This document shows, piece after piece, positions 47,009 through 58,322 of a stretch of 64,000 bases of DNA (the first letter of the stretch is position 1; every line of letters begins with the position of its first letter). The stretch comes from Planctomicrobium piriforme (lineage in GTDB: Bacteria; Planctomycetota; Planctomycetia; Planctomycetales; Planctomycetaceae), in assembly GCA_945860955.1 (NCBI GenBank), contig CAMATH010000001.1, positions 1 through 64,000 of the forward strand. Direction: 5' to 3'. The notes below the pieces were generated by a model. That model worked only from the letters and a program-made list of their open reading frames with translations. It did no database searches and had not been told where the DNA came from. The position numbers and the translations under genes are program-made.

Positions 47009-47319
47009 TCGAACGAGAGGAACGTGCGAAATGAGTCGGCGAAATGATGGTGGCGAACGCCTGAAGACGCCGAAAATTCCGTCTCCCAGGGAACGCTCAC
47101 GGCCGCTCTGTGGCTCCGCTCCGACGAACTCCCCGGGACAAGCCGGACAGTCGACCCGAAAGCCAGGCCGACATTCGGGCATCATAGCGGCGAATCGCAA
47201 GTGGGGGAATGAGTCGCGCGCCCTTGCGGGTTGCCCACCGATGCGTAATACAATGTCGGGTTGTTTCCGAAGGCGGTCGCTTTCGGCTGACTTTTTCAGA
47301 CGGTTCCCCCGCGTACGCC
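47009..47319. promoter_or_regulatory. Divergent intergenic region before the pseudokinase gene
   Basis: This 311-bp region holds no gene. It includes a probable plus-strand promoter, TTGCGG (47224-47229), a 16-bp spacer and TAATAC (47246-47251). The next start codon (47320) follows at a short leader. Confidence 0.4.
47224..47251 (+). promoter_or_regulatory. Putative promoter of the pseudokinase operon
   Basis: TTGCGG at 47224-47229 and TAATAC at 47246-47251 are separated by 16 bp, upstream of the ATG at 47320. This is the best sigma-70-type match in the region, judged by eye. Confidence 0.4.
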
Positions 47320-49455
47320 ATGGCTCTACCCGCAACCGAGATTCCCCCGCAAACGGGTGCCAACTTGCCCCCGTCCTCGCCGCCAGCCGTGCCGGGATAT
47401 TCCATCGCGGGAGTTTCCGGACTCGGGTCTGCGGGGCCATTCTATGACGCCCGTCGTGAGAACGGGGAGCCAGTCCGTCTGTACTGGATGACCGGGCTGG
47501 CCGCCTCCCAACGAGACCTCACCAACTTAGCCCGGGACGCCGCGACGCTCGCCAAACTGAACAACTTCAATTTGTGCCCCGTCCTGGACGCCGGATCGGT
47601 GGCGGGAACCGTTTTCCAGGTACTTGCGGCAGGATCATCGGAGACGTTGGCGGACAAAATTACGGGATGGCCCTTCGAACCACGCCAGGCGGCGGAAATC
47701 GGGCTGGCTGTCTGCATGGGATTGCGAGGCCCACACGACAAGGGGGTGGCACACTGCGATATCCATCCCCGGAATATCGATTGGGGGACTGACGGTGCCG
47801 TGAGGCTGTGCCGATACGCGCTCGCTCCCGTCCCGGTACCAGAAAACGACCCGAGTCGGCTTCCGACCGTCGCCTACTGGGCTCCCGAACGCCTGGTCGC
47901 CAATACGGCCCACAGCGATCTGTCGCTTGATGTCTACGCGATCGGCGTGATGCTGTATCAACTCCTGACGGGGCGGGTTCCATTCGTCGGGGGAACGTAT
48001 ACCGATTTGGGTCGGCAGATTCTGAAACACGAACTGCTGCGCCCGACTCAGCTCAACGCCCAAATCCCCAAGCCGCTCGAGCGTATCGTTCTGAACTGCC
48101 TCGCCCGCGATCCCCACCAGCGGTACGAGTCGGCTCAGTTATTGGGTGACGATCTCAAGCGGTTTTTGAACGGCGAACTGGTCCATGCGCGGGGACCGGG
48201 TTTGACCCGCCGGGTGTTCAAGGCGATTGTGCGGCGTCCGATCCAGCTCCTGACTCCCCTGGTGCTGCTGATCGCGAGTCTGGTGTGGGGCTCGAACGGC
48301 TGGCGGCGCTGGGAAGAGTTGGACCCCAAATACCAGGAACTGTCGCACAAGAAATTGGTTGCCGACATGCGGGCCAAGATCAACGAAGAGACCCTGGGCG
48401 AAGCGCTCACTTCGCAATACCAGTTGTTGGAGTTTCTCTCCGACGAAGACTTCGCGCACTATTCGGAACTCGACCCGTTGCGTAAACGCGTTCTCAGTGA
48501 CTTGGCCGAATTCAATTCGGCACTGCAGAATCGCGTCGGGGAATTCGATCGTGAGGATCCCAATCTCGGTCGTTCCAAACTGGTCACCGCGACCATGCAC
48601 CGGATCACCGGAGATTCGTCCGCAGCGCTGGCGGATTACTACAGCGCCCTGCGAGCGCTGCAATTCAAGCGTCAGCCACTCGAAACTAAAGAGGGGACAT
48701 CCAGCGGAGGGGGCAAGATCAACGAGCTGTTGACGTGGGTGAATCGTGGCGAAGGACTGCTACATCTCCCTTCGGAACGGCCGATGAACTCCATCGCCTG
48801 TTTCGAAGCGGCGATGAGTGAGTTTCAACTCGTCGAGAAGGCCGGGGGAGCGTCACCGCGGAACGAATGGGAAAAGGCCCGCGTCCTCAGTGAACGGTCC
48901 GTGGCGAAACGTCTGGTGGGCCAGAACAGCGGAGCCCGGGAAGACGCGAACCTCGCACTGGAAACGCTGAATGCGATAACGGCGGACAAACTCGATCTCT
49001 CGGCGGTTGAGGATTTGCGGTCCCGGATGTTGTTTCGACGTGGACAAATCCGGAGAGCGCTCAGTGAGTTCGAACCTGCGATCGCTGACTTTGAGGCCGC
49101 GCTCCAGCAGTTGGAATCGATTGGCCAGCGGCCGGAAAACGACATCGATCTTCGACCGAGAATCGTCGAAACCCGTGCGGAAATCGGCAAGACGCTGCTC
49201 GACGCGGGCCAGGTCGACAGCGGTCGCGCGAAACTGGAACAGGTGGCGTTGGAATGGCGGGGACTGACCGAGCGTTATCCACGGGCGTGGCGCTTCCACG
49301 AAAAGATCGCGGAGGTCTACGAGCGGTTGGGGCAAACCGAATTGGCCGATGCGGCTCGTGCGAAGGCGAAAGAACACAAACCGTTACCCAAGGTGTCGGA
49401 TGGTTCCGCCTCTGGGCATTCGGGAGCGGGTAGTTTTCCAGGAGCGCACCCATGA
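47320..49455 (+). CDS. Predicted pseudokinase-transmembrane-helical repeat protein
   Basis: This 711-residue protein begins with a serine/threonine-kinase-like domain (about 25-285). The activation end (YWAPER, 187-192), DVYAIGVMLYQLLTG (204-218) and the catalytic-loop Asp and Asn (HCDIHPRN, 145-152) are recognisable. The ATP-anchoring lysine is missing (VRLYWM, 52-57) and the metal-binding DFG is RYA (165-167), so phosphotransfer is unlikely. A single membrane span follows (about 308-324), then ~390 residues of helical TPR-like repeats that lie on the other side of the membrane if the kinase-like part is cytoplasmic. Its stop overlaps the start of the next gene (ATGA), so translation is coupled. 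It starts at ATG 47320. Confidence 0.82.
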   Translation: MALPATEIPPQTGANLPPSSPPAVPGYSIAGVSGLGSAGPFYDARRENGEPVRLYWMTGLAASQRDLTNLARDAATLAKLNNFNLCPVLDAGSVAGTVFQVLAAGSSETLADKITGWPFEPRQAAEIGLAVCMGLRGPHDKGVAHCDIHPRNIDWGTDGAVRLCRYALAPVPVPENDPSRLPTVAYWAPERLVANTAHSDLSLDVYAIGVMLYQLLTGRVPFVGGTYTDLGRQILKHELLRPTQLNAQIPKPLERIVLNCLARDPHQRYESAQLLGDDLKRFLNGELVHARGPGLTRRVFKAIVRRPIQLLTPLVLLIASLVWGSNGWRRWEELDPKYQELSHKKLVADMRAKINEETLGEALTSQYQLLEFLSDEDFAHYSELDPLRKRVLSDLAEFNSALQNRVGEFDREDPNLGRSKLVTATMHRITGDSSAALADYYSALRALQFKRQPLETKEGTSSGGGKINELLTWVNRGEGLLHLPSERPMNSIACFEAAMSEFQLVEKAGGASPRNEWEKARVLSERSVAKRLVGQNSGAREDANLALETLNAITADKLDLSAVEDLRSRMLFRRGQIRRALSEFEPAIADFEAALQQLESIGQRPENDIDLRPRIVETRAEIGKTLLDAGQVDSGRAKLEQVALEWRGLTERYPRAWRFHEKIAEVYERLGQTELADAARAKAKEHKPLPKVSDGSASGHSGAGSFPGAHP

Positions 49456-50372
49456 GCGAAAATTCGCAAGCGACCCCTGACCGTTCCGGCTTCGCTGAGG
49501 AATATCCGTTTGAGTCTCGTTACTTCAACCTGGATGGCCGCCGGTATCACTACATTGACGAAGGGGCCGGAGAGGTGTTGTTGTGCGTGCATGGCAACCC
49601 CACCTGGAGCTTCGCCTGGCGGAATGTGGTAAAGGATTTGTCGCGGGATCATCGGGTGATCGCGGTCGATCACATCGGATGTGGCTTTTCCGACAAGCCC
49701 CAGGATTACCCCTATCGCCTGGAAAATCATATCGACAATTTGTGTCGGTTCGTCACCGGGCTGGACCTGCGGCGGATCACACTGCTTGCGCATGATTGGG
49801 GCGGTGCGATTGGGATGGGGGCGGCGGGTCGGCTGCCGGAGAGGTTCTCGCGACTGGTGTTGTTCAACACCGGGGCGTTTCGCTCGCGGCACCTGCCTTG
49901 GCGGATCGCGGTTTGTCGCTGGCCTGTAGTGGGACCGTTGGGAGTACGGGGGTTCAACCTGTTCGCGCGGGCGGCCCTGTCGATGGCTGTGGAGCGGCCA
50001 GAGCGGATGACGGCGGCGGTCCGCCGGGGGCTGCTGGCTCCCTACGGTTCGTGGCATGACCGGGTGGCGATCCAGCGGTTCGTCGAAGACATCCCCATGT
50101 CGGCCAAGCACCCCAGTTACACGACACTGCTTCAGGTCGAGAATGGCCTGGTGGCGTTGACACAGAAGCCGCTGCTGTTGATTTGGGGCGAGCGGGACTG
50201 GTGTTTCACCCCCGCGTTTCGCGAAGAGTTCCAGCGGCGGTTTCCGGCTGCCGAGGCGTTTCGGCTGGAAGATGCCGGCCATTACGTTTTCGAAGATGCG
50301 ATCGAACAGATCATTCCCCGCTTACGCGGTTTTCTAGCGGCCCATCCGCTCGCCCCCATGGAATCCACCTGA
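49452..50372 (+). CDS. Alpha/beta hydrolase with aspartate nucleophile (haloalkane dehalogenase-like)
   Basis: This 306-residue alpha/beta hydrolase has its nucleophile Asp115 in AHDWGG, an acid at Asp249 (GERDW) and base His277 (DAGHYVF). The oxyanion/halide motif HGNPTWSF (48-54) is of the subfamily III dehalogenase/OleB kind, in which beta-lactone decarboxylation in hydrocarbon synthesis is one known reaction. No OleA, OleC or OleD gene is adjacent, so dehalogenase or other lyase activity remains possible. The ATG overlaps the pseudokinase stop codon by four bases, which couples the two genes. Confidence 0.88.
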   Translation: MSENSQATPDRSGFAEEYPFESRYFNLDGRRYHYIDEGAGEVLLCVHGNPTWSFAWRNVVKDLSRDHRVIAVDHIGCGFSDKPQDYPYRLENHIDNLCRFVTGLDLRRITLLAHDWGGAIGMGAAGRLPERFSRLVLFNTGAFRSRHLPWRIAVCRWPVVGPLGVRGFNLFARAALSMAVERPERMTAAVRRGLLAPYGSWHDRVAIQRFVEDIPMSAKHPSYTTLLQVENGLVALTQKPLLLIWGERDWCFTPAFREEFQRRFPAAEAFRLEDAGHYVFEDAIEQIIPRLRGFLAAHPLAPMEST

Positions 50373-50524
50373 CCCAGCGGCATTCCCCGGCAGCCGGCTG
50401 GGGCGGATTTTGTAACCCGTGAGTCGTCGAATTCGAGTCCGCAAGCCGTGTGCTGTCGCCTTGCGTCCACGCAACCACTAAAATAACCCGTTGGACTCCA
50501 CGACGTCGTAATTCACAGGAAGCA

Positions 50525-53500
50525 ATGGACTCTCAGGAAACACTCTCTCACTTCGCGGCGGGAACCGAGGAAGATGCCGCGCTCCGAGAGATGCTGGGTT
50601 ACGTGAACTTCTCCAGCGGGATGCCCGATGCGAAGTTTCAAAAGCACCTCAATCGGTTCGCAGGCTGGCTGACCCCCGGCCCGGCTGGTTGTGCGCTCCC
50701 CGCCCTGATGACCGCCCGGTTGCGCGGACTGTCGGCGGAGCGGGGAGCGTTCGCCGACGTTTCCCAGGCGCTCGCCGCCACCCAGATCGTCTTTGATCGC
50801 CTGATTCCAGCCTACAGGGCCCATCATGCCGATCTTCTGGCGCACATTGGCGAAGCGTGGTATTACCAGCCTTTCTTCATCGCCCGGCTGTTTGAGGCGG
50901 TCTTGGCGCAAGGGGGGCCGTGGAATGAAACCGACCGCATCGTCAATGGTGCCCTGGCGCAATTGAACGACTACCTGGGACATCGACCGGTCGCGGTTCT
51001 GGAGAACCGTCGCCGGATGCAGCCGTATTCCCACGAACGATTCCGTCCGGTACCCCTGTACCTGCGTGGCGTGGGAGTGTCGGCGGGACCGTATTGCGAG
51101 CTGATCACCCGGGCATTCGAAATCCTCCGGACGATTCCTGCGGATATTCTCGCGTCGTCGTATTTCGATCTCAATCTGCTGGATGAGCTGGCACTGGACC
51201 TGCGGGCGTACGACAACTCGCACCCGGTGTACCGTCGAACGAATTACACGTTTGGCGAGTGGGATCCGCACTGCATGGACGTTTCGGGGCGGTATCGCCG
51301 ATTCGTCGTCCGTTCGATCATTCTCGATTCTCTGATCGACTGGATGAAACAGGCCGAGGAGGTCCCAAAGGACGAACAGGTCAGCGAGGCGGCGGCGGTC
51401 TTGGCGGGGACGATGCTGATGGCCTCGTCGATCAGTGGAGCAGGACCAGACACCCACGATTCGAGCATTAGCCTGACTTCGCTGCTTCCCCGTGTCGCCC
51501 GGCAACGCGACGCCTTTTACCAGTTGCTGCTGCAGTTGATGACGGGCAAACACGCCGAGAGGTTGCGCCGCGAGGCTCAGGCGGTCCAACAGCCGTTCGG
51601 GAAGATTCGGCAGCATTTGAATCTTTTCCTGGCGAATTATGGGTGTCAGCAGTTGCAGCGGTCGCATCTGGCGTGGCTGTTCGCGCGCATGGGCTACGCC
51701 GACGCGGCGCGAAAACAGGCGCGGATCATCCCGGCGGCCTCGACGCGTTTTGAAACCGAGATTCAACTGCAACTGACCCAGGCGGTGTTGAACGTCGATC
51801 AGGGGCAAGTCGCCGACGCCGCCGTTTCGCTGCAATCCGCCGAGGAATTGCTGCATCGGGGCATTGAGTGCGGGGCACTGGTCGACCCGTGGAATATCCT
51901 GGGGTTTCAGGGACAGTTTCCGCTCTTTTCCGCGCGGGAAGATTCGGTCCCCGACCCGCGGATTGACCGCTTACTGTCGGTGATGGACCAGGTGTTCAAT
52001 GTCTTCAGTCGCGTGCAATGCGAGGCGGCAGCCCAAGGGCAGCGTGAACTGGTCGAATCGCTCCAGAAGCGGTTCGGCACGCTGGCGGAATTCTGGGATC
52101 AGTTCGCGTCGACCGCGGTCGCCGACTTGCAGCCGGTGAACGGGGCGGTCTCCTACGACTCGGCGAAGCGGGTGGGTACCGTGTTGCTCGCCTGGCGGGA
52201 AGCGGGCGAGGCGGCGGGGGATCTGGGATTCTGGAAGACACATCTCGAAGAACTCGATTCGCCCCGTGCATACGCGACAGTCATCGATTTGCTGTTGCGG
52301 AAACGCGATGTCGTCGCGTCAATGAACCTGCTGATTCAATGGCTCAGCCAGAGTGAAACCGTCCCGTTGGAGGCGGGGGTTTGCGCTTTTTGGCCACTGC
52401 TGGAAAGCTGGGTTCAACTGGTGGCGGGCGAAACGTCGGCCAGCGACCCAACGCCGCTCGACTCGATGGCCTGGGACCGATTGCGGGTGTTCTTCGATCG
52501 CGTCGACGTGAACGCGGGGGAATGGGGACAGGCACCGCAAATCCTGGGTGACGCGGGAACACCGCTGAAACTCGCCGGCGGACTTCCTCCGTCGGAAAAA
52601 GGGCTGGAACCACCGGGTGCCGACCCGTTTGACCCGTTCGATCTTCCGGATGAACCCCCCGAGGACGATCCGCTGTTTGAAGCCGCGTATGAAAACGTCG
52701 TGTTCCGAGACAGCGCGAACGATGGTCATACAGGCGATACGCTGGACGACTCCACGCCGCACAGCGACACCGATCTCGATTTGCTTTCCGGGCCGCTCGA
52801 ACAACGGTTGCGGTTTCTGGTCGCGCTCTCGGCAGGCTGGAGCATCGCCGCCGATCGGGGGCTTTCCTTGAGATCTCCGGACCTGGAAAAACGCCGCGAG
52901 GTCGTCCTCACCTGGGAGGAACGGAATGAAGAGGTGACCCGCGGCCTGGTGCGGCTGCTCGAGCGTTTGAACGAGTGGCAGCCACAGGAGCCGGGGGGCG
53001 ACCCCGATTCGCTGGGGGAATACGACCGCGAACTGCACCTGAAATACAGCGTTCTCAACAATGCGCTGTCGATTGTGGTTGGCTTGCAGGAAACCGGGCG
53101 GAAATTGCGCACGCTGACACGGGCGGGGGGAACGGTCGCGCCGGCTCCCGGTGCCGCCGCCACGGGGATCGAAGAACGGGTTCAAAAGCTCCTGTTCGCG
53201 ATCGAACGCCGCGAGGTCGAGACGGTCCGCAAGCTGTTGCCCGCGACCTTGAAGCAGCTCATTCGGTTGCCTTTGTTGTACGTTCCGCTCGACCGCGGGG
53301 GACGGGTGCGTGACATTCTCGCCGCCCGCAATCTGCAAGGGCTGCTGCGACTGCTGTTGCGCAAACTGCCGCAGTTGGGACTGTTCCGCGAAGCGTGGCA
53401 CGTTCTCAAGACCGCTTACCAAATGGAGCGGAACAACCCCCCGTCGGGGATGTCGATCACCGAATTTGACCGGCTGCTGGAGACCGCCGTCCAAAGCACA

Positions 53501-54526
53501 CTGGAAGTCGCGCTCGCGGCATCGGCCCTGTGGGCTCCCGGTGACGCCACCGACAAGAAGATCATCGAACTCTACGAGCTTCTCACCGAGATGTTTCTGC
53601 GGCTGTGGCTCAAGCACAGCGGGACAATGCGGTTGAGTACGATTGAGTCACTGAACGAGCGGCAGTTGTGGCGCGAGGTCAAGGCGTTTGTCAAGAATTA
53701 CGGGGCCGACCTGTTTCATCCCCGCATGCTCAGTATCGGAAACCTGCGGGGCATCGTGCAGCGGGGGGCCGAAGCGTATCTCGACTATCTCGAGCAAAAC
53801 GCCGATCCGTTGCATCCGATCAAACTGCTGAGCGACATTGATTACGCTCTGTCACGCGAACAGGCTGCGGAGACGCTCGAACTGATTCTGCGCTCGGTCG
53901 TGGAAAAGTTCGACCGGTTCCTCGAATACAATTCGACGACCACACATTCCGATTACGGCGAGCAACTGCACTGCCTGCTCGACTTCGAGCGACTGGAATC
54001 GGACTACGACCGGCAAGACTGGAACCTCGCTCCGTTGCAACTCGCGCATGACGTTCTCGCCCGGGCCGGTCGGGTCGAAATCGCCATGGCGTGGCAGAAA
54101 AACCTGGAACGCAAGACCGCTTCCATGGCGAAGAATTATCTGCAAAAACTCAAACGCCTGGAAAAGACCTACGGAATGCGGCTTCCCAGCGTCACCGATC
54201 GGCTGGGCGAACGCTTCACCAAGCCGCTGGTACTCGACTCAATTCTGGCACTCGTTCGGCCGGCGATGAAGGAAGTTCGGGATGGAAAGCCAACCGTCAG
54301 CTTTGTGAAACTCGAGGAACTCGCCGAGCAATATCTGTCGACTACGTCCGGGTCGGCGATGGATGTGCAGCCCTGGATGCAGCGTCTGGGAGAGGAGGTC
54401 CAGGCGGTGGAGGCGGACCTCAACGTTCCTGTGCCGCACGAATCGGACCCGGCCGCCGTTCCGCTCGTCCCGATTTCCTACGCCTCGATTCGGCAGCAGA
54501 TCGACGTGTGGGATACGCCGTTGTAA
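50525..54526 (+). CDS. Large soluble protein of unknown family
   Basis: This 1333-residue protein has no signal peptide or membrane span and is rich in Leu, Arg, Ala and Glu. Its helical pattern looks like an alpha-solenoid or coiled-coil-rich scaffold. An acidic, less ordered stretch lies about residues 705-755. No domain that I recognise is visible. The ATG at 50525 has AGGAAG about 7 bases upstream, which supports the start. It lies 152 bp after the hydrolase gene in the same orientation and may share the transcript with the pseudokinase pair. Its size and lack of known domains make it the largest unexplained protein in the window. Confidence 0.88.
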   Translation: MDSQETLSHFAAGTEEDAALREMLGYVNFSSGMPDAKFQKHLNRFAGWLTPGPAGCALPALMTARLRGLSAERGAFADVSQALAATQIVFDRLIPAYRAHHADLLAHIGEAWYYQPFFIARLFEAVLAQGGPWNETDRIVNGALAQLNDYLGHRPVAVLENRRRMQPYSHERFRPVPLYLRGVGVSAGPYCELITRAFEILRTIPADILASSYFDLNLLDELALDLRAYDNSHPVYRRTNYTFGEWDPHCMDVSGRYRRFVVRSIILDSLIDWMKQAEEVPKDEQVSEAAAVLAGTMLMASSISGAGPDTHDSSISLTSLLPRVARQRDAFYQLLLQLMTGKHAERLRREAQAVQQPFGKIRQHLNLFLANYGCQQLQRSHLAWLFARMGYADAARKQARIIPAASTRFETEIQLQLTQAVLNVDQGQVADAAVSLQSAEELLHRGIECGALVDPWNILGFQGQFPLFSAREDSVPDPRIDRLLSVMDQVFNVFSRVQCEAAAQGQRELVESLQKRFGTLAEFWDQFASTAVADLQPVNGAVSYDSAKRVGTVLLAWREAGEAAGDLGFWKTHLEELDSPRAYATVIDLLLRKRDVVASMNLLIQWLSQSETVPLEAGVCAFWPLLESWVQLVAGETSASDPTPLDSMAWDRLRVFFDRVDVNAGEWGQAPQILGDAGTPLKLAGGLPPSEKGLEPPGADPFDPFDLPDEPPEDDPLFEAAYENVVFRDSANDGHTGDTLDDSTPHSDTDLDLLSGPLEQRLRFLVALSAGWSIAADRGLSLRSPDLEKRREVVLTWEERNEEVTRGLVRLLERLNEWQPQEPGGDPDSLGEYDRELHLKYSVLNNALSIVVGLQETGRKLRTLTRAGGTVAPAPGAAATGIEERVQKLLFAIERREVETVRKLLPATLKQLIRLPLLYVPLDRGGRVRDILAARNLQGLLRLLLRKLPQLGLFREAWHVLKTAYQMERNNPPSGMSITEFDRLLETAVQSTLEVALAASALWAPGDATDKKIIELYELLTEMFLRLWLKHSGTMRLSTIESLNERQLWREVKAFVKNYGADLFHPRMLSIGNLRGIVQRGAEAYLDYLEQNADPLHPIKLLSDIDYALSREQAAETLELILRSVVEKFDRFLEYNSTTTHSDYGEQLHCLLDFERLESDYDRQDWNLAPLQLAHDVLARAGRVEIAMAWQKNLERKTASMAKNYLQKLKRLEKTYGMRLPSVTDRLGERFTKPLVLDSILALVRPAMKEVRDGKPTVSFVKLEELAEQYLSTTSGSAMDVQPWMQRLGEEVQAVEADLNVPVPHESDPAAVPLVPISYASIRQQIDVWDTPL

Positions 54527-54538
54527 ATCGGGTTCGTC

Positions 54539-54566
54539 TTGACAGTTTTGGTGGATGGAGTTATCC
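54539..54566 (+). promoter_or_regulatory. Putative promoter with inverted repeat before the O-antigen-ligase-like gene
   Basis: TTGACA (54539-54544), a 16-bp spacer and TTATCC (54561-54566) lie about 70 bp before the start. GGTGGAT (54550-54556) and ATCCACC (54563-54569) form a 7-bp inverted repeat overlapping the -10, which could be an operator or a hairpin. Confidence 0.45.
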
Positions 54567-54636
54567 ACCTTGCCCCGGACATCTCGTTTCTTGTTGAAAC
54601 AAGGCGTCTCCTGGGACGGGAAACCCTGTTGAGAGC

Positions 54637-55953
54637 ATGATGAACGCCGCGGCTACGACACAGTCGGAATTCACGACGATTGGCCAATTCGCTGCCGACG
54701 CGACAGTTTTGGACGAAGTACGTCCCTTGGGTAGCCGGTCGGTGCCACTCTCCACCGTCACGCGCTGGCTGGCTGTTGGTGTGGGCTTCAGCATCCCGGT
54801 TTCGACCTCATTTTCTGAGATCATGGTGGGGTTGTTCGTTCTGAGTTGCCTCATCACAGATCGCCCCACCTGGCGGTGGATGGCTCAGGCGGGAGGAGGG
54901 GCCGTCACGTTGTCGATGGGACTCTTCGCGTTGCTGACTGTCGGGATTGTCTGGTCAACCGCAGACCTTTCTGATGGATTCCGCTGTCTGCTGAAATACC
55001 GTGAGTTCCTTTACCTTCCCTTGATGGCGCGGGTTTTTACGGACCGACGCTTTCGGGAACCCGCGATGTGGTCGTTTTTGGCGGGCTGCGCGGCAATTCT
55101 GGGACTGAGCTACCTCGAATGGTGTACGCCCCTCGATCTGGGGATCACTCGGGAGGAATTCCCCGGTGACCATGTCATCTCAAAAGATCGAATCGTCCAC
55201 AACCTGCTGATGTCGCTCTTCGCGTATTTCTGTGCGCTGGAGTTCCTACGGACTCCTGGACGGATCCGTTGGCTGTTCCTTGCGCTGATCGGTGTCGCCG
55301 CCTTCAATATTGTATTCCTGGTCCAGGGGAGAACCGGGTATTTGACTCTGTCGGCATTGTTGACCTTGCTCTTTGCGAACCTGTTTGGCAAACGCGGACT
55401 GATCGCGGCGGCCCTGGTCTTGCTGTTGGGTGCGTCCGTCGCGTACGAAACGTCACAGGTGGTGCGAACCCGTTTTGACCTGACATGGAATCAATTCAAG
55501 AACCAGTTTGGTGCCGAGCGAAAACACTCGGATGACCCCCGACTTGAATTCTACGTGACGACGATGACGCTATTGAGAAACCATCCCTGGATGGGAACTG
55601 GGACCGGCAGTTTTGAACGAGAGTACGCCGAGGTCATCCGCGGTACGGATGTGAGTCCGGTTTCCGAACCACACAACGAGTATTTGCTTCTCTCGGTGCA
55701 ACTTGGACTGGTCGGTGGATTTGCGTTCCTGACACTGCTGGGAACCCAATGGTACTCTGGTCGGCGAATTCCCGACTGGGAACGACAGGTTCTGCAGGGA
55801 ACGGTCCTGTGCATTGGAATTGGCTCGCTATTCAATTCACTCCTGCTCAGCGTAACTGGCGGTCTGATCTGGAGTTATTTCACTGGCCTGGCCTGCGGCG
55901 CGTGGGGTGAGAGGAACCCAAATGTCGTTTCGGAAATCCCTCGCCCGTCGTGA
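54637..55953 (+). CDS. O-antigen ligase/polymerase-like membrane protein
   Basis: This 438-residue polytopic membrane protein has about ten to twelve hydrophobic spans. In the O-antigen ligase (WaaL/Wzy_C) family the most conserved parts are the segment QGRTGYLTL and the late loop EPHNEYLLLSVQLG, both visible here (about residues 231 and 345). Such proteins join or polymerise polysaccharide on the outer face of the inner membrane. The exact reaction (ligase or polymerase) cannot be told. No glycan-synthesis cluster is adjacent, except the glycosyltransferase-like gene at 61022-63568. Confidence 0.88.
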   Translation: MMNAAATTQSEFTTIGQFAADATVLDEVRPLGSRSVPLSTVTRWLAVGVGFSIPVSTSFSEIMVGLFVLSCLITDRPTWRWMAQAGGGAVTLSMGLFALLTVGIVWSTADLSDGFRCLLKYREFLYLPLMARVFTDRRFREPAMWSFLAGCAAILGLSYLEWCTPLDLGITREEFPGDHVISKDRIVHNLLMSLFAYFCALEFLRTPGRIRWLFLALIGVAAFNIVFLVQGRTGYLTLSALLTLLFANLFGKRGLIAAALVLLLGASVAYETSQVVRTRFDLTWNQFKNQFGAERKHSDDPRLEFYVTTMTLLRNHPWMGTGTGSFEREYAEVIRGTDVSPVSEPHNEYLLLSVQLGLVGGFAFLTLLGTQWYSGRRIPDWERQVLQGTVLCIGIGSLFNSLLLSVTGGLIWSYFTGLACGAWGERNPNVVSEIPRPS

Positions 55954-56932: not shown

Positions 56933-57730
56933 TTACGCCGCCTTCGACAGCTTCAGGATGACCGGTTCCTTCTGAGCGACGATCGCGGTCAGGAACTGTT
57001 CGAAGACCTGCATGTCGAGTGCCGACGCGGTCTCGTTCTCGGGATGCCACTGGACCCCCAAGGCGAACCAGTTGGGATCGGTCGATTCAATCGCTTCGAC
57101 AACGCCATCGGGAGCGGTCGCCGACACCATGAAGCCCTTGGCGACGGTGTTCACCGCCTGGTGGTGGCCGCTGTTGACGCGGATTTCGCCCGGTCCGTAG
57201 ATCTTGTCGACCCGGGTTTCCGGAACGATGTTGAGGATGTGACGCAGCGTGCTTTCCACCGGGTCATGGTGGTGCAGAGCTTTGGGACACTCTTCGGGAA
57301 TGTGCTGGTAGATGGTTCCGCCGCAGATGACGTTGAGCAACTGCATGCCACCACCAATCGCCAGAATGGGCATCCGCATTTCCACCGCCATACGACAGAG
57401 CCGGCGGTCGAAGTCTTCGCGGCGGGAAGCCATCGGGCGGGTGTGCGGATGCTTGTCCATTCCCAGACGCACGGGATCGAGGTCTTGTGCGCAACCGGAG
57501 AGGACCACGCCGTCGAGCATCTGGAGGAATTGCTTGAGGTCGGCGTCGTCGGCGAGCGGGGGGACCAGCACGGGAATCGGGTTGATGAAGTCGACGTCGC
57601 GGGGACCGGTCTTCAACCGGGTCGCCGACACCGAATCGTAGTAACCGGCATTGAACCAACTGAGCGCGATCGCATCCTTGCGCGCGGGTCGAAAATCACC
57701 GTTGATGCCGATCAGGGGTTTCGTGGCCAT
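56933..57730 (-). CDS. Class I amidotransferase-family protein with Cys-to-Gly nucleophile (peptidase C26-like)
   Basis: This 265-residue protein matches gamma-glutamyl-gamma-aminobutyrate hydrolase and related class I glutamine amidotransferases. VNSGHHQAV and the catalytic His/Glu pair (VQWHPE, H229 and E231) are kept. At the nucleophile elbow the expected Cys is Gly: AIGGGMQLLNV, G126, codon GGT where TGT would give Cys. It is therefore probably not a standard hydrolase. The ATG at 57730 has GAAGGA upstream. A long non-coding leader lies before it. Confidence 0.88.
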   Translation of the reverse strand: MATKPLIGINGDFRPARKDAIALSWFNAGYYDSVSATRLKTGPRDVDFINPIPVLVPPLADDADLKQFLQMLDGVVLSGCAQDLDPVRLGMDKHPHTRPMASRREDFDRRLCRMAVEMRMPILAIGGGMQLLNVICGGTIYQHIPEECPKALHHHDPVESTLRHILNIVPETRVDKIYGPGEIRVNSGHHQAVNTVAKGFMVSATAPDGVVEAIESTDPNWFALGVQWHPENETASALDMQVFEQFLTAIVAQKEPVILKLSKAA

Positions 57731-58322
57731 TAGCAGTCCTTCGCAACGTGTCACGGGGAAACGGTATGAACTCTCGTTCCATGCGCGAAGCCGACGACCA
57801 CGTCGACTGTGTGCGAAGCGAAACCCGGTTGCATCTCGTTCGATTCCTGAAAGGAACGAACGCTGGATGAACAACCAGAAACAGCCCGAAAGCGTTAGAA
57901 AGATGCCCAGAGCCGGCGGACTGTGGCGAAACTCGCCCCACCAATCCCCTCGGCCTGAAAGACGCCCGGCCAACGCGACACGCTACGGGTTTCCCCGCGA
58001 GAGATGGTCTCTCTCTGGTCGCAGATTGTTGGCTTGACGCGGTTCATCCTTGAACACTCCCGAACCAATTCCCTCGGCTCGCATGGCACGGTGAACAACT
58101 CACCCGCCTCACGGAACATCTCCGTCGCTGGCGAAGAATTCTCTCATTCGCGTCGCGACGAGTGGGATGATAAGCAACCCGCTCCGACGAAGTCAAAACA
58201 AAACCTGATTTTGTGGAAAAATTGTCTCAAGTCACCCTTCAGGCACAACCGGTAGTATCTGACTTCGGGTCCTGGAGGGGGCAACACACGAATCTCTCTT
58301 GACGCATCCCAGTCCTTTCGGA
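57731..58322. other. Long intergenic/leader region of the amidotransferase-family gene
   Basis: This 592-bp region has no supported gene; the frames inside have no homology. A sigma-70-like promoter on the minus strand at 58196-58167 would give a leader of about 430 bases before the gene at 57730. No known riboswitch or small RNA is recognised in it. Confidence 0.5.
58167..58196 (-). promoter_or_regulatory. Putative minus-strand promoter, TTGACT-18-TATCAT
   Basis: On the minus strand TTGACT (58196-58191) and TATCAT (58172-58167) are 18 bp apart. It is the best match in the 592-bp gap and points at the amidotransferase-family gene. Confidence 0.4.

Follow-up and report, generated by a model that had tools for sequence, protein, structure and literature searches.

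A predicted pseudokinase gene overlapping a haloalkane-dehalogenase-like gene in Planctomicrobium piriforme, and the large core gene that follows them

Planctomycete Ser/Thr kinases in which a cytoplasmic Pkinase domain is combined with periplasmic tetratricopeptide repeats (TPR) have been described (PMC11032199), and EssB/YukC and MviN recruit their partners through degraded kinase folds (PMC12599244); the word planctomycet is absent from the latter review of pseudokinases, and a survey of the literature by titles and the beginnings of abstracts yielded no planctomycete pseudokinase. We analyzed a stretch of 64,000 nucleotides from Planctomicrobium piriforme (the window; positions 1 to 64,000 of contig CAMATH010000001.1, assembly GCA_945860955.1), which forms the start of contig C1 in a genome of 8.4 Mb that is 98.9% complete and divided among 282 contigs. 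Our subject is three consecutive plus-strand genes within it, which we call KIN (47209/47320-49455), HLD (49452-50372), and BIG (50525-54526). An earlier note on this DNA had joined all three in one signaling or scaffold system. We favor a narrower reading, to which we assign a probability of roughly 0.45: KIN and HLD may constitute a two-gene, genus-restricted pseudokinase-hydrolase operon in which KIN acts as a noncatalytic membrane receptor or scaffold, most likely for HLD, and BIG would be an unrelated core gene that comes after it.

In the order of its parts, KIN resembles the planctomycete Ser/Thr kinases with one span and periplasmic TPR, its C-terminal part being weakly TPR-like, but it lacks both the lysine of VAIK and the aspartate of DFG, and its TPR matches lie under the cut-off (PMC11032199). 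With EssB/YukC, MviN, DYD, and DLHK, compared by their descriptions, it shares degraded ATP and metal motifs, and EssB, MviN, and DYD are membrane proteins, as KIN is predicted to be (PMC12599244). DLHK keeps the HRD Asp, as does KIN, but has no spans, whereas a span is predicted in KIN at residues 344-362; DYD carries an Arg and a DYD motif where KIN and its homologues read R-Y-A or R-F-A (PMC12599244). The arrangement of parts in KIN is ordinary for planctomycetes (PMC11032199); what is new is the loss of both motifs within a clade together with the gene partner. In a genome that has about 90 loci with kinase domains, the pair offers a simple two-gene test case for bacterial pseudokinase function, and the partner belongs to an enzyme subfamily whose role is debated.

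Kinase motifs lost from a retained fold

The KIN reading frame is open on the plus strand from 47209 to 49455, and residues are numbered here from 47209; the ATG at 47320, which encodes Met38 of that frame, is the likelier start, because alignment with the two full-length homologues begins at residues 33 and 38. The domain at about residues 62-325 (47392-48183) matches Pkinase with an E value of 1.1e-22 and 81.1 bits, well over the cut-off of 31.7, and so has a protein kinase fold by sequence; PknB-type kinases are its best solved relatives. The earlier note had proposed that this fold persists in spite of the loss of both the VAIK lysine and the DFG motif, and had named misalignment of the motifs as the finding that would overturn the claim. 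Five positions (VAIK Lys, HRD Asp, Asn, DFG Asp, and DFG Gly) were read after alignment to a hidden Markov model (HMM) trained on 27 of the genome's own canonical kinases. KIN gives Y-D-N-R-A: Tyr92 (47482-47484) occupies the position of the VAIK lysine, the Asp and Asn of HRD...N are kept, the former as Asp184 (47758-47760) in the sequence H-C-D, and residues 202-204, R-Y-A (47812-47820), stand at DFG, with Arg and Ala at its first and last positions. Alignment with PknB likewise sets DFG over R-Y-A. The homologues in two genomes of the same genus, G286 and G334, read R-D-N-R-A and gap-D-Q-R-A, and of the five positions only the HRD Asp is common to all three copies.

The 88 other kinase-domain loci of the genome (30 plus 58, four short Pkinase segments being omitted) served as a control. 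K-D-N-D-G was read in 83 of them, and the remaining five gave RRNDG, KDNDS, KDNDH, -DNDG, and --NDG; the DFG Asp was missing from none. Misalignment is ruled out by the HMM from same-genome kinases, since the other loci of the genome all read the DFG Asp and 83 of the 88 read all five residues, and the lysine and DFG Asp are truly lost in KIN and both homologues. The locus that reads R-R-N-D-G (L253, G000:C50:44227-45006) may represent a second pseudokinase or a misalignment in its own right.

On these alignments, KIN is a clade-conserved pseudokinase, and because the two residues that hold ATP and metal have been lost, it most likely does not transfer phosphate. An alternative, that ATP binding or phosphate transfer by KIN persists in some unusual form, could draw on the HRD Asp kept in all three copies and the Asn kept in two, and on the ATP binding modeled for DLHK and DYD kinases that have no lysine (PMC12599244); we consider it improbable, as both anchoring positions are gone and the replacements of the lysine differ (Tyr, Arg, and a gap), with no conserved substitute visible.

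The membrane span and the helical repeats claimed for the rest of the protein fared differently. There is a single hydrophobic stretch in KIN, residues 344-362 (48238-48294; hydropathy of 1.67 over 19 residues), which is predicted to cross the membrane once, as had been proposed; because an Arg-rich stretch precedes it, the positive-inside rule would place the kinase fold in the cytoplasm. The C-terminal part beyond the span (48319-49452) is predicted to be helical and is weakly TPR-like, but its matches fall below the Pfam cut-off (TPR_1, E value of 5.3e-4, 20.1 versus 27.8 bits), so that helical repeats are plausible and not proven.

Coupling of KIN to a hydrolase gene

HLD (49452-50372, plus strand) encodes a probable subfamily-III haloalkane-dehalogenase-like alpha/beta hydrolase. 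It scores under the cut-offs of the haloalkane dehalogenase models; its best solved relative is 8ooh (E value of 1.3e-41), which we take to be DhmeA from its residue numbers, and Asn49, Asp115, Trp116, Asp249, and His277 align with Asn63, Asp129, Trp130, Asp258, and His286, the pentad of DhmeA (PMC10503415). The subfamily also includes DrbA of Rhodopirellula baltica and OleB (PMC10503415). Large oligomers and low dehalogenase activity are hallmarks of subfamily III, and OleB is a beta-lactone decarboxylase that acts within an oleABCD pathway. HLD has all five pentad residues in common with these enzymes, and the pentad is intact in 25 of 26 aligned HLD sequences (a contig end truncates the remaining one); the earlier description of the product as a hydrolase with an Asp nucleophile is borne out. 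What sets HLD apart from DhmeA, DrbA, and OleB as described (PMC10503415) is that it here adjoins a pseudokinase gene; for an oleABCD pathway the analysis covered the genes flanking HLD in the window, which are KIN and BIG.

The stop codon of KIN and the start codon of HLD share the ATGA at 49452-49455 on the plus strand, as had been noted, and the tight coupling extends beyond this genome, the junction being a 4-nucleotide overlap here, a 17-nucleotide overlap in G286, and a 5-nucleotide gap in G334. These two genomes are the only ones in which full-length KIN relatives were found, and with the C-terminal part of KIN as the query, strong relatives were found in 3 of the 101 genomes of the family, all of them of this genus, and weak ones in three (E values of 7e-6 to 1e-3). 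HLD lies directly after KIN in all three genomes that have KIN (three of the four genomes of the genus), a divergent GFO/IDH gene stands on the other side of KIN in each, and the KIN frame is open in all three, with the same motif positions lost.

A role for KIN in signaling or as a scaffold would be consistent with these features. KIN would have descended from the ordinary kinase-span-TPR receptors of planctomycetes; its TPR-like part, outside the membrane, would bind or sense something, and its kinase fold, inside, would hold a partner, most likely HLD, which is encoded in the same operon. An interaction between KIN and HLD, taken by itself, is a more doubtful proposition than the reading as a whole, and we put it forward tentatively.

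Several observations weigh against a scaffold of this kind. The HRD Asp is retained in KIN, so that residual activity is possible. The fourth genome of the genus, G316, has neither KIN nor HLD in its assembly; an assembly gap can explain their absence, because the G316 contig ends inside BIG. KIN diverges fast: the relatives in G286 and G334 are 35% and 32-34% identical to KIN, compared with 69% and 66% for HLD in the same genomes, which does not suggest a tight interface shared by the two proteins. HLD, in addition, occurs without KIN across most of the family. A relative of HLD (E value of 0.001 or less) is present in 100 of the 101 family genomes, with a best match below 1e-60 in 96, and these 96 best matches are 41-72% identical, own genome aside. 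Outside the genus 23 HLD loci were examined, and no KIN relative adjoins HLD at any of them; two (L128 and L141) offer less than 1 kb upstream of HLD, and one has a match to an ordinary kinase about 6 kb away. The neighbors of HLD vary, and at 10 of the 23 loci (L143-L147, L151, L152, L154, L155, and L157) the upstream gene belongs to a single bioF-like cluster, in four cases with a 4-nucleotide overlap. Gene models at the HLD loci, and upstream of BIG in G286 and G334, came from a simple choice of open frames, and many of the relatives' genomes are fragmented metagenome-assembled genomes (MAGs).

Because KIN diverges fast and HLD is widespread without it, a shared transcript with no functional link is nearly as likely as the scaffold reading. 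KIN and HLD would then merely be cotranscribed, KIN being either a degenerating or an independent receptor upstream of a hydrolase whose neighbors change freely, and the confinement of KIN to one genus, like the variable context of HLD across the family, would fit such a history. Less easily accommodated are the overlap or near-overlap of the two genes and the divergent GFO/IDH gene, both kept in three genomes in which KIN has fallen to about a third identity, and the loss of identical motif positions from a frame that has stayed open in all three.

Two side observations concern HLD. The bioF-like label derives from one scanned member of the cluster (L154), which scored just below the model cut-off; the gene hints at a possible link between HLD-III enzymes and an alpha-oxoamine synthase, nothing on bioF together with haloalkane dehalogenases was found in the literature by title, and in the present genome the bioF-like gene lies on a contig different from that of HLD. 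In G265, a peptidase C26 relative (L150, 11109-11927) lies just after HLD and is 59% identical to the copy in the window (56933-57973), which lies about 6.5 kb downstream of HLD on the opposite strand.

BIG, its separation from the pair, and its recurrent neighbors

BIG (50525-54526, plus strand) starts at the ATG at 50525 and encodes 1,333 amino acids. The earlier note had found no recognized domain in it, and in agreement there was no match in Pfam or NCBIfam; among 16 BIG members, nine Pfam families matched weakly, each in one member only, and no solved relative was found by sequence at an E value better than 0.46. AlphaFold models of the two halves of BIG, a prediction that the note had proposed, are confident and mostly helical (mean predicted local distance difference test [pLDDT] scores of 91.4 and 85.6). 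A Foldseek search with the halves gave no PDB match at an E value of 0.001 or less, and the best VIA Z scores, 9.4 and 10.3, are within the range expected by chance for helical models, the PDB matches being helical repeats of many kinds; that the fold is new does not follow from this lack of a match.

By the earlier note's own test, the proposal that KIN, HLD, and BIG form one system would fall if the three genes were not neighbors in related genomes, and in the relatives examined they are not. They lie on one strand with short gaps here, and linkage in G316 is conceivable, given that its contig ends inside a BIG fragment whose protein is 98% identical. But BIG occurs in 99 of the 101 family genomes (all 82 of the good ones), whereas strong relatives of the KIN C-terminal part occur in 3. 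Neither HLD nor KIN stands directly before BIG in any of the first 15 relatives or at any of 67 further loci where the sequence extends more than 1.5 kb upstream, and the 2-4 kb preceding BIG in G286 and G334 are occupied by other genes. HLD and BIG come no closer than 157 kb in the 16 genomes that have both on one large contig. A weak KIN- or HLD-like match lies several kilobases from BIG in 4 of 80 loci. BIG has recurrent neighbors of a different kind, described below. We have rejected the three-gene system on linkage and consider it most improbable; BIG is a near-universal core gene, unlinked to KIN and HLD in the relatives examined. A defense-system reading was likewise discarded, PADLOC having returned kinase models such as PD-T4-6, mad6, MkoA, and PglW for KIN and no hit for HLD or BIG.

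In wider searches, BIG was detected in 16 genomes of a phylum sample of 246; the genome collection gave 493 stretches with BIG, and 80 of them were kept. Over 95 BIG loci, and with an antisense frame inside BIG set aside, the commonest neighbors are genes for proteins of about 480, 700, and 390 amino acids, found at 26, 28, and 26 loci, respectively; some genomes are counted twice in these figures and in those over 96 loci. The 480-residue protein is a MotA/TolQ/ExbB protein (PF01618; E values of 1e-12 and 5.6e-12 in the two members scanned) and is weakly ZorA-like. In each of the 700- and 390-residue proteins there is a single hydrophobic stretch near the N terminus, and neither gave a match above cut-off; in five sequences of the latter an invariant Asp stands at the head of the span. 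At 96 loci the sequence reaches at least 1.5 kb upstream of BIG; members of this trio are encoded there, in divergent orientation to BIG, at 30 of these, and at one more locus they lie downstream on the same strand as BIG. Loci that show the association include L017, L018, and L170, and BIG and the trio are also neighbors in two Gimesia MAGs (L184 and L186). In the present genome the trio lies together on contig C10 (L360; G000:C10, about 49,950-54,997), away from BIG.

The association extends to whole genomes. Of the 16 genomes in the phylum sample that have BIG, 15 gave a match below 1e-40 with the 390-residue protein as the query (G105 gave none), and nine genomes without BIG gave only weak matches (7e-7 to 8e-4). 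In the family the gene is present in 95 of 101 genomes, accompanied by BIG in 93, and within 10 kb of it in at least 24, a lower bound from pairs collected by eye. Co-occurrence of BIG and the trio is confounded by descent, which explains part of the pattern but hardly the repeated adjacency.

Motor clusters described in bacteria of the Planctomycetes, Verrucomicrobia, and Chlamydiae (PVC) contain a TPR gene, a tolQ-like gene, two unlike tolR-like genes, and a vWA gene (PMC12204202). What the BIG loci have in common with them is a MotA/TolQ/ExbB-like gene, a helical protein, and a pair of single-span proteins unlike each other; they differ in that a crude motif scan found no vWA gene near BIG in nine loci. 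The two clusters may be related. Apart from that possibly related cluster, titles and the beginnings of abstracts disclosed no literature on BIG with its neighbors. We tentatively propose, with slightly less conviction than we attach to the KIN-HLD operon, that BIG came to lie beside the pair by local rearrangement and serves as the helical subunit, located in the cytosol, of a machine in the envelope of Planctomycetia that is driven by ions and as yet undescribed. In it a MotA/TolQ/ExbB-like channel, whose C-terminal tail is long, would act with two unlike single-span TolR-like proteins, one of them bearing the invariant Asp where its span begins. Although it is large and belongs to the core genes of a bacterial class, BIG is covered by no family model; it may be part of a proton-driven machine, and together with its channel neighbors it is a more novel and surprising lead than the KIN-HLD pair.

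Some minor features surround BIG. The stretch separating HLD from BIG contains a terminator-like hairpin (50384-50407, plus strand); such hairpins are no commoner than in shuffled sequences (9 versus 7.1 ± 2.6). RNA families and tRNAs were looked for in the window, and none were present. An O-antigen-ligase-like (Wzy_C) gene follows BIG at 54637-55953, and the relatives' loci that were searched revealed no similar gene. In G316 (L124, G316:C66), DNA identity to window positions 53257-54522 within BIG is 92.5%; because the match stops at the end of BIG, the downstream DNA differs in that genome. Two loci with BIG proteins of 44-45% identity, a level like that in Planctomycetaceae, come from MAG records titled Candidatus Kuenenia stuttgartiensis (L182 and L189), and these titles are probably wrong.

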